Both the position numbers and the translations under genes were made by a program. Below are positions 7,886-64,000 of a DNA stretch of 64,000 bases, in pieces. Source of the stretch: Dyella amyloliquefaciens (GTDB lineage: Bacteria; Pseudomonadota; Gammaproteobacteria; Xanthomonadales; Rhodanobacteraceae). Numbering within the stretch: the first letter of the stretch is position 1; each line of letters starts with the position of its first letter. The DNA lies in contig NZ_SAYT01000004.1 of NCBI RefSeq assembly GCF_004296575.1, forward strand, positions 186,001 through 250,000, read 5' to 3'. Under the pieces are notes generated by a model. The model was given only the letters and a program-made list of their open reading frames with translations, searched no databases and was not told where the DNA came from.

Positions 7886-8341
7886 ATGACTCCACGCTTC
7901 GGCTATCGCTCATTGCGCCACGGACGCGTTTCGCTTCCCGGTCAGATCTATCTGCTTACGACCGTTGCTGCCTATCGACGTCCGCTCTTCCGGAATGTGG
8001 AAGCGGCAAGAGCCTTGTCCCGCTGCATGCGCGAGGATTCTTGCTGGGGCGACGCCACACTCCTGTGCTGGGTATTGATGCCTGATCACTGGCATGGACT
8101 CGTGAAACTAGGGGCGCGCGACAACCTGTCCACCGTGATGAATCGCTTCAAATCCATCACCGCGAAGCGGCTCCATTGCACACAGGTGGGCCTTGTGTGG
8201 GATCGCGGCTATCACGATCGCGCCGTGCGTGCTGATGAGGATATGCGCGCCGTGGCTCGCTATATCGTCGCCAACCCGCTTCGTGCCGGACTGGTCAGTC
8301 ATGTTCTCGACTACCCCTACTGGGACTGCGTCTGGCTTTGA
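7886..8341 (+). CDS. REP-associated tyrosine transposase (RAYT, Y1/TnpA-REP family)
   Basis: A 151-residue Y1 HUH-type single-strand transposase. The HUH motif is PDHWHG (His68, His70), which binds the catalytic metal. Tyr126 in RYIVANPLRAGL is the expected nucleophile, and that motif is diagnostic for RAYTs. FKSITAKR and WDRGYHDR are further family signatures. RAYTs cut and join DNA at GTRG-tagged REP palindromes. The gene is flanked by a REP at 7757 and a REP pair at 8351-8429, and matching palindromes are scattered across the window. It looks intact, is usually single-copy, and normally shows no terminal inverted repeats. The ATG at 7886 lacks a strong ribosome binding site. Confidence 0.9.
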   Translation: MTPRFGYRSLRHGRVSLPGQIYLLTTVAAYRRPLFRNVEAARALSRCMREDSCWGDATLLCWVLMPDHWHGLVKLGARDNLSTVMNRFKSITAKRLHCTQVGLVWDRGYHDRAVRADEDMRAVARYIVANPLRAGLVSHVLDYPYWDCVWL

Positions 8342-62518: not shown

Positions 62519-62598
62519 GTGGGAGCGCACCCTGTGCGCGACGACCGGACGAAGAGGTGATCTTTCGCTCCGCGGTCGCGCACAGGGTGCGCTCCCAC
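62519..62598. repeat. REP family 1 inverted pair
   Basis: Forward unit 62519-62542 (GTGG, stem GCGCAC-CCT-GTGCGC) and inverted unit 62575-62598, the latter preceded by CGCTCCGCG. Starts are 56 bp apart. It lies between hemY and a convergent membrane gene. Confidence 0.88.
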
Positions 62599-63116: not shown

Positions 63117-64000
63117 TTACAGCGGTGTCAGGTTGGCATAGGCGTAGACCAGCCACTTGCTGCCGGCCGACGCGAAGTTCACCTGGATGCGCATGTGCGC
63201 GCCACTGCCTTCGGCGCTCACCACCACACCCTCGCCGAAGCTGGGATGGTTGACGCGTTGCCCCAGCTTGAGTGGCATGGGTTCGTCCAGCGAAACGGAG
63301 CCGCTGTTCGGCCGCGCGCCATAAAGCGGGCGGCTGACCTGCACGCGCGGCCGCACTTCGTCGATGAGTTCGGGCGGAATCTCGCCGAGAAAGCGCGACG
63401 GCCGCGCCAGCATTTCCTGGCCGTGCATACGGCGCGATTCGGCGTAGGTGATGAACAGGCGCTCGCGGGCGCGGGTGATGCCGACATAGGCGAGGCGGCG
63501 CTCTTCTTCGAGGCGACCTTCGTCCTCCACCGAGCGCTGGCTCGGGAACAGGCCTTCTTCCATGCCAACCAGGAACACCACCGGGAATTCCAGGCCCTTG
63601 GCCGAATGCAGCGTCATCAGCTGCACGCAGTCGTCCCAGGATTCGCCCTGGCCTTCGCCGGCCTCGAGGGCGGCATGCGAGAGGAACGCGGCCAGCTCGC
63701 TCAGGCCGGCCTCGACGTCGTCAGGCGTGAGTTCGAAGCGGCTGGCGACGTTGACCAGCTCGTCCAGGTTCTCCACGCGCGATTCGGCATTGCCGCGGCT
63801 GTCCTTTTCGTAGAAGTCGCGCAGGCCGCTGTGGGTGATGGCGTGGTCGATCTGTTCGGCCAATGCCATCGCACTTGAAACCCTCTCTCCTGCGGGGAGA
63901 GGGTTGGGTGAGGGGTCATTCGAAGCGGAAGCGCTCGGCAAGCCCGCCCCCTCACCCCAGCCCTCTCCCCCTGGGGGAGAAAAAGCGCGCGCCATGTCCT
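63117..64000 (-). CDS. uvrD: DNA helicase II UvrD, C-terminal part, with in-frame REP insertion
   Basis: At least 294 C-terminal residues of UvrD (cut by the window edge), the 3'-5' helicase of nucleotide excision and mismatch repair. ALAEQIDHAITHSGLRDFYE, RVENLDELVNVASRF, ALEAGEGQ, QLMTLHSAKGLEFPVVF, RRLAYVGITRARERL and the C-terminal GQRVNHPSFGEGVVV (Tudor-like) match the family in order. Within the coding frame, 42 extra residues sit between ...DM and ALAEQIDH; they are encoded by a 126-bp REP pair. The frame stays open through the insert to the window end. The rest of the gene is outside, so integrity of the whole cannot be checked. Confidence 0.9.
   Translation of the reverse strand, partial: DMARAFSPPGGEGWGEGAGLPSASASNDPSPNPLPAGERVSSAMALAEQIDHAITHSGLRDFYEKDSRGNAESRVENLDELVNVASRFELTPDDVEAGLSELAAFLSHAALEAGEGQGESWDDCVQLMTLHSAKGLEFPVVFLVGMEEGLFPSQRSVEDEGRLEEERRLAYVGITRARERLFITYAESRRMHGQEMLARPSRFLGEIPPELIDEVRPRVQVSRPLYGARPNSGSVSLDEPMPLKLGQRVNHPSFGEGVVVSAEGSGAHMRIQVNFASAGSKWLVYAYANLTPL
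63870..63995 (-). repeat. REP family 2 pair inserted in frame within uvrD
   Basis: The 126-bp element holds a forward unit (63881-63915) and an inverted unit (63947-63980) of REP family 2. It lies between two copies of GCCAT (63865-63869 and 63991-63995), a likely 5-bp target duplication. Its length is 42 codons exactly, and it adds a Gly/Pro/Ser-rich peptide. Removing it restores GAC ATG GCA TTG GCC (DMALA). Confidence 0.87.

Follow-up and report, generated by a model that had tools for sequence, protein, structure and literature searches.

REPINs are doublets of REP sequences that are linked to RAYT transposases. A second group of related elements, the GTAG/CGTC REPs, is described as lying in frame in many genes and giving rise to "REP-decorated" proteins (PMC3733652; BMC Genomics 2013, 14:522). 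PMC3733652 stresses genes of replication and repair, naming a UvrD/REP helicase and RNA helicases, and it gives one same-site case, the recB REPs of X. campestris and X. oryzae, which lie at about the same site. It also asks whether REP insertions in repair genes reflect chance or change repair. Palindromes in frame in protein genes are likewise known as Rickettsia palindromic elements (RPE), whose insertions are summarized in PMC10969869; PMC3733652 cites work in which proteins with RPE-1 are expressed in vivo.

Here, we describe a REP pair in frame in uvrD of Dyella amyloliquefaciens, at the end of a window that comprises the whole 64,000-nt stretch of DNA analyzed, G000:C12:186001-250000 of the source genome. 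Like the intragenic GTAG/CGTC REPs, the element is a small palindrome dimer in frame in a protein gene; in-frame REPs, including those of a UvrD/REP helicase, are already known from PMC3733652, and the view in the original prediction that REPs are normally extragenic is therefore too strict. Unlike those REPs, however, the hairpins of eight dispersed copies of this element carry no consistent GTAG or CGTC tag, the end mark of those superfamilies, as judged by eye. In addition, across a bacterial family a single loop holds two palindromes of clearly unrelated sequence and, in genome G062, a CGTC-like third. The likeness to the palindromic elements of Rickettsia holds in that a palindromic insert lies in frame in an intact gene whose orthologs occur without it. 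The uvrD element differs from RPE in length and sequence, however, and its hosts are distant; whereas RPE-1 protein expression is cited in PMC3733652, the uvrD insert is known from sequence alone. With REPINs, it shares an inverted REP pair with a spacer and dispersed copies, although the RAYT in the window is flanked by another REP family and thus offers no tie to that of uvrD. In the open-access literature, we found no report of one loop holding unrelated palindromes across a family. The locus turns a scattered curiosity, REPs in repair genes, into a comparative system in which one helicase loop has short and palindrome-holding alleles in many relatives, named species included. The question in PMC3733652 of chance versus altered repair becomes directly testable in this system, which also provides natural data on the extra length that this part of UvrD tolerates.

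A REP pair within the uvrD open reading frame

On the extended contig, the minus-strand gene uvrD is one complete open frame of 760 codons that runs past the window edge and remains open through the REP pair (Table 1). Its product has the UvrD-helicase, UvrD_C, and PcrA_UvrD_tudor domains (Pfam). The inverted arms and the single open frame confirm a REP pair inside uvrD and in frame, with no stop codon of the insert in the used frame of the source genome (G000). A repeat search yielded 85 matches to the uvrD repeat in this genome, and the two hairpin variants occur at 72 and 19 sites with at most one mismatch, compared with none for the reversed pattern. The repeat is thus a high-copy short palindrome, as is characteristic of a dispersed REP-pair (REPIN-like) element. 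Positions 63868–63992 have a pronounced hairpin potential (z −4.6; 0 of 200 shuffles as low), although the same loop reaches only z −2.4 in a 60-shuffle survey with other limits.

Table 1 Features of the uvrD insert and of a second REP-bearing gene in the source genome (G000)
Feature	Position	Strand	Remarks
uvrD 3' part (residues 468–760 and stop)	63117..63998	-	gene extends beyond the window to G000:C12:251399
Insert-derived codons 474–509, 36 residues (SPPGGEG...ERVSS)	63873..63980	-	alignment of 20 congeners
First REP arm, coding order	63949..63983	-	hairpin 63961–63983, inner motif 63949–63957
Linker between inner motifs, 34 nt	63915..63948	-	homologous to other type A uvrD linkers and to dispersed REP pairs
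Second REP arm, coding order	63881..63914	-	hairpin 63881–63903, 1 mismatch (by eye), inner motif 63906–63914
Native codons MARAF, wrongly assigned to the insert in the original prediction	63981..63995	-	congener alignment
In-frame REP pair in hrpA-like gene	G000:C13:141150-141302

We considered an RNA family or an intron as the identity of the insert and rejected both, as the 32 Rfam matches are all to microRNA families below their gathering scores; we take these matches to be chance hits of a GC-rich hairpin. Self-splicing introns and inteins are also larger than the insert of ≈108 bp. Strong hairpins could in principle stall ribosomes or cause them to skip, but an insert missing from the mature product through RNA removal or translational bypass, or one that is an artifact of assembly or annotation, is most improbable given that in-frame relatives are present in assemblies of many species and that the Rfam search points to no RNA that would be removed.

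A gene for a RAYT-type Y1 transposase is located at 7886–8341 of the window, and both of its flanks carry a different REP family (GTGGGAGCGCACC / GTGGGAGCGCACCCTGTGCGCGAC); G000 has a second RAYT gene as well. The family flanking the RAYT gene in the window (GTGGGAGCGCACCCTGTGCGCGAC) also occurs at ≈62519–62598 and, outside the window, a short way upstream of uvrD. A profile search of the insert carriers G010 and G011 gave no PF01797 match.

Limits of the insert and its position in UvrD

Among the 20 genomes of the genus, 16 encode a short loop that aligns as MARAF-AG(T/A)xxG(D/N)-ALALAEQ, and four have a long loop (G000, G010, G011, and, in eroded form, G009). Seven native residues of the short-loop congeners (AGTETGN or alike) are replaced by 36 in G000, for a net gain of 29 rather than the 42 residues originally predicted. 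That prediction had bounded the insert by a 5-bp target duplication, GCCAT, and had found that its excision in silico rejoins a normal UvrD sequence. The two GCCAT copies are indeed present (63865–63869 and 63991–63995, 126 bp apart), but the second is native, corresponding to the ATGGC of "DMARAF" in short-loop congeners, and the first is part of "AMALAEQ" in the long allele, a stretch that reads "ALALAEQ" in short-loop congeners. Because MARAF belongs to the native sequence of all 16 short-loop congeners, there is neither a GCCAT duplication nor a 42-residue insert, and we rejected the GCCAT-bounded model; removal from GCCAT to GCCAT takes away five native residues. In relatives, the frame is indeed unbroken and a gap falls where the insert lies, although not one of 42 residues, and the possibility that the presumed insert is native sequence in relatives applies to MARAF but not to residues 474–509. 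The hairpin of the first arm (63961–63983) is eroded at its outer end, with three mismatches to CCCTCTCCCCNNNGGGGAGAGGG (counted by eye), and overlaps the Phe-473 codon. We found no target duplication at the insertion ends of this REP pair, termed type A below; some copies have the dinucleotide CT at either end, as read from the copy alignment, which may be due to chance.

The insert point aligns between residues 470 and 473 of Escherichia coli UvrD, so the location originally given was roughly right. We take the 2B subdomain of the E. coli protein to span residues ≈378–550, which would place the insert point inside it, and the insert-bearing loop is therefore probably part of 2B. We consider it likely that the insert is a dispersed non-coding REP pair that has entered a length-tolerant UvrD loop in frame and is translated there as a tolerated selfish element. 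A hairpin–linker–hairpin unit of ≈103 bp would have inserted into this loop and would be read as a Pro/Gly/Ser-rich segment, presumably disordered and nearly neutral in effect, in a flexible part of the regulatory 2B subdomain. Its persistence could be explained by the lack of a stop in the used frame, by the sparing of the helicase core, and by the removal of frame-breaking changes. The loop itself would serve as an acceptor, occupied repeatedly by the REP pair, by 7-bp arrays, and by a third palindrome.

The uvrD loop is an insertion hot spot in Rhodanobacteraceae

The relatives compared are Dyella and other Rhodanobacteraceae. A 121-residue UvrD query has matches in 224 of 233 genomes, with no internal stop in any listed match. 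We examined 126 of these 224 loci, consisting of all 20 of the genus, 26 of the best others, and 80 other listed loci; these 26 loci bias the sample toward long loops, and 98 loci were left out. The parser, which accepts open frames only and so makes "in frame" partly a matter of construction, handled 124 loci; G058 and G230 were not parsed, although the G058 loop is in frame when read separately. These 124 loops comprise 45 short ones, 38 of type A (with REP motifs), 22 of type B, and 19 other long loops, in a classification by motif counts that leaves borderline loops uncertain and includes one type A loop that is mostly masked. Type B loops are inverted arrays of a 7-bp unit, for example GGGACTC ... 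GAGTCCC. Among the 19 other long loops, that of G062 contains a 32-nt inverted repeat, 78% complementary and starting with CGTC; G053 has a shorter hairpin that resembles it by eye, although the repeat finder did not list it. Those of G022, G035, and G168 contain heptads missed by the motif list, and several others look eroded.

With 60 dinucleotide shuffles, 23 of 37 type A loops, 13 of 22 type B loops, and 3 of 19 others have z below −3, as opposed to 0 of 78 downstream control stretches. The third-kind loops of G062 (z −2.3) and G053 (z −1.5) miss this value, as does that of G000. Among the 29 listed matches from other families of the order, whose spans are shorter than the query, none has an insertion. 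The uvrD loop is thus an insertion hot spot in Rhodanobacteraceae that has been occupied several times, by the REP pair, by inverted 7-bp arrays, and by a third palindrome in at least one genome; the insert kinds at this one loop are unrelated, which implies separate entries.

Type A inserts share one arrangement and occur outside uvrD

Type A inserts are common to five genera, with a shared start, frame, and homologous linker. Of 17 copies with both hairpins, 15 have their left edge 6–7 nt past the start of the Phe codon, and the spacing is 43 in 18 of 23 loci with both inner motifs. These inner motifs always have one orientation and a constant phase (phase 2 in 29 of 29 hits for one, phase 0 in 29 of 29 for the other). 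Because the hairpin exists as two variants that compensate each other in length, the outer hairpin motifs fall in two or three phases; the variants are found in mixed combinations. Linker identity between genera is 0.618, compared with 0.281 after shuffling (18 loci with spacing 43), and uvrD linkers are mutually 0.631 identical (141 pairs, 19 loci). The linker amino acids are also alike between genera, with a mean BLOSUM score of 16.9 versus −2.6 for shuffled sequences, a likeness for which DNA similarity alone suffices.

Neutral repeated entry should lead to variation, and the one orientation and inner frame of type A fit either a single old entry or selection. In the latter case, the insert would be functional, changing either the regulatory 2B subdomain or the contact with a partner. 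The constant frame and orientation, the position between E. coli residues 470 and 473, the similar linker amino acids, and the stress laid on repair genes in PMC3733652 are compatible with such a role. We nevertheless regard it as unlikely, as more than a third of the parsed loci (45 of 124) do without an insert, the site holds unrelated sequences of differing lengths, and the listed matches from other families lack any insertion.

Copies of the type A unit lie outside uvrD as well; G007, with a short loop in its own uvrD, is an example. These matches overturned our initial view that the linker is restricted to uvrD. We fetched 20 non-uvrD places, picked from linker-unit matches and hairpin pairs. 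Eight have the same spacing, three another spacing, and nine no motif pair; the eight same-spacing copies represent ≈5 separate sites, as G007, G011, G197, and G201 share flanks. An inverted pair with a homologous spacer is therefore present at several sites. The linkers of the eight dispersed copies have a mean identity of 0.52–0.63 to uvrD linkers, with a null value of 0.32. The recurrence of spacing and linker elsewhere shows REP pairs of this family to be units, in line with the original prediction but not on the basis of the GCCAT duplication that it invoked.

An intergenic REP pair (L304–L323) upstream of a conserved ATGAGCGA start is present in G005, G007, and G011; 12 congeners, whose intergenic sequence is unlike theirs, lack it (15 of 20 parsed). 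This pair is patchy too (3 of 15), so patchiness is not special to uvrD.

History of the inserts

On a quick tree of the UvrD flanks, with SH-aLRT support only, type A requires 23 changes, at least 13 of them forced by starred branches, type B requires 20 (at least 15 forced by starred branches), and all four loop states together require 42. Type B is scattered much like shuffled labels (204 of 500 as low). The tree places G000 beside three species whose short AG...ALALAEQ loop looks native. We also considered a transferred tract beside the G000 insert and rejected it, because adjoining 25-codon windows are no closer to carriers than to short-loop sisters, in a test that misses short tracts.

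In genomes with a v1 majority, the uvrD arms comprise 13 v1 and 8 v2, and in those with a v2 majority 0 and 4 (Fisher p 0.039), a comparison in which arms are not independent and 6 of 21 genomes gave no arm; the arms thus follow the majority variant of their genome weakly. It is quite conceivable, if somewhat short of an even chance, that type A stems from a single ancient insertion made before several genera of Rhodanobacteraceae diverged, which was vertically inherited, often lost or replaced, and had its hairpins gene-converted from other REPs. The start, orientation, inner frame, spacing of 43, and homologous linker common to 18 loci in five genera agree with such an origin, as do the mixed hairpin variants and the bias of the arms toward the majority variant. 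The number of forced changes on the tree, the branching of G000 among short-loop species, and the fact that dispersed-copy linkers resemble uvrD linkers roughly as much as uvrD linkers resemble one another all argue in the opposite direction. A single insertion concerns the history of type A only and is compatible with a tolerated element. The type A pattern seems about equally compatible with an old single entry followed by losses, with repeated entry, and with recombination of short tracts; insertion, descent, and recombination may all have contributed to the spread of the element.

Type B elements

In some hosts, type B is dispersed through the genome as a repeat. The G194 element has 122 matches in G194, 63 each in G210 and G139, and 26 in G032, and it is rare (1–3 matches) in G101, G209, G150, and G157. 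In 12 of the 22 type B loops, nucleotide 5 is the first of a GGGA or GGGG run. A scan of the fetched loci gave 0 exact 7-bp arrays with letters unlike those of the loops, whereas the genome search revealed many 7-bp arrays in some genomes. The uvrD gene of G194 contains two near-identical inverted 7-bp-repeat elements, both in frame (L199, 277–405 and 1116–1257); one lies in the hot-spot loop and the other between helicase motifs II and III.

A second REP-bearing helicase gene

A rough open-frame scan of the 30 best REP places in G000 (≈23 sites) identified two REP sites crossed by long coding-type frames, uvrD and an hrpA-like gene, which we named from its Helicase_C, HA2_C, OB_NTP_bind, and DUF3418 domains. 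We chose 20 hrpA loci by hand, mostly split matches, from the 94 genomes with matches; at one site, 15 of them carry one or more of four REP motifs and 14 carry at least two. Five of these 15 come from genomes in which the uvrD loop is short.

The presence of REP pairs in two helicase-type genes, together with the excess in repair genes described in PMC3733652, argues against pure chance. It is possible, although we doubt it, that the uvrD loop captures unrelated palindromes at almost the same nucleotide, that lengthening alters UvrD regulation, and that selection favors captures in helicase genes, acting through either host mutability or the elements' own spread. In G075, the hrpA REP element has undergone tandem multiplication.
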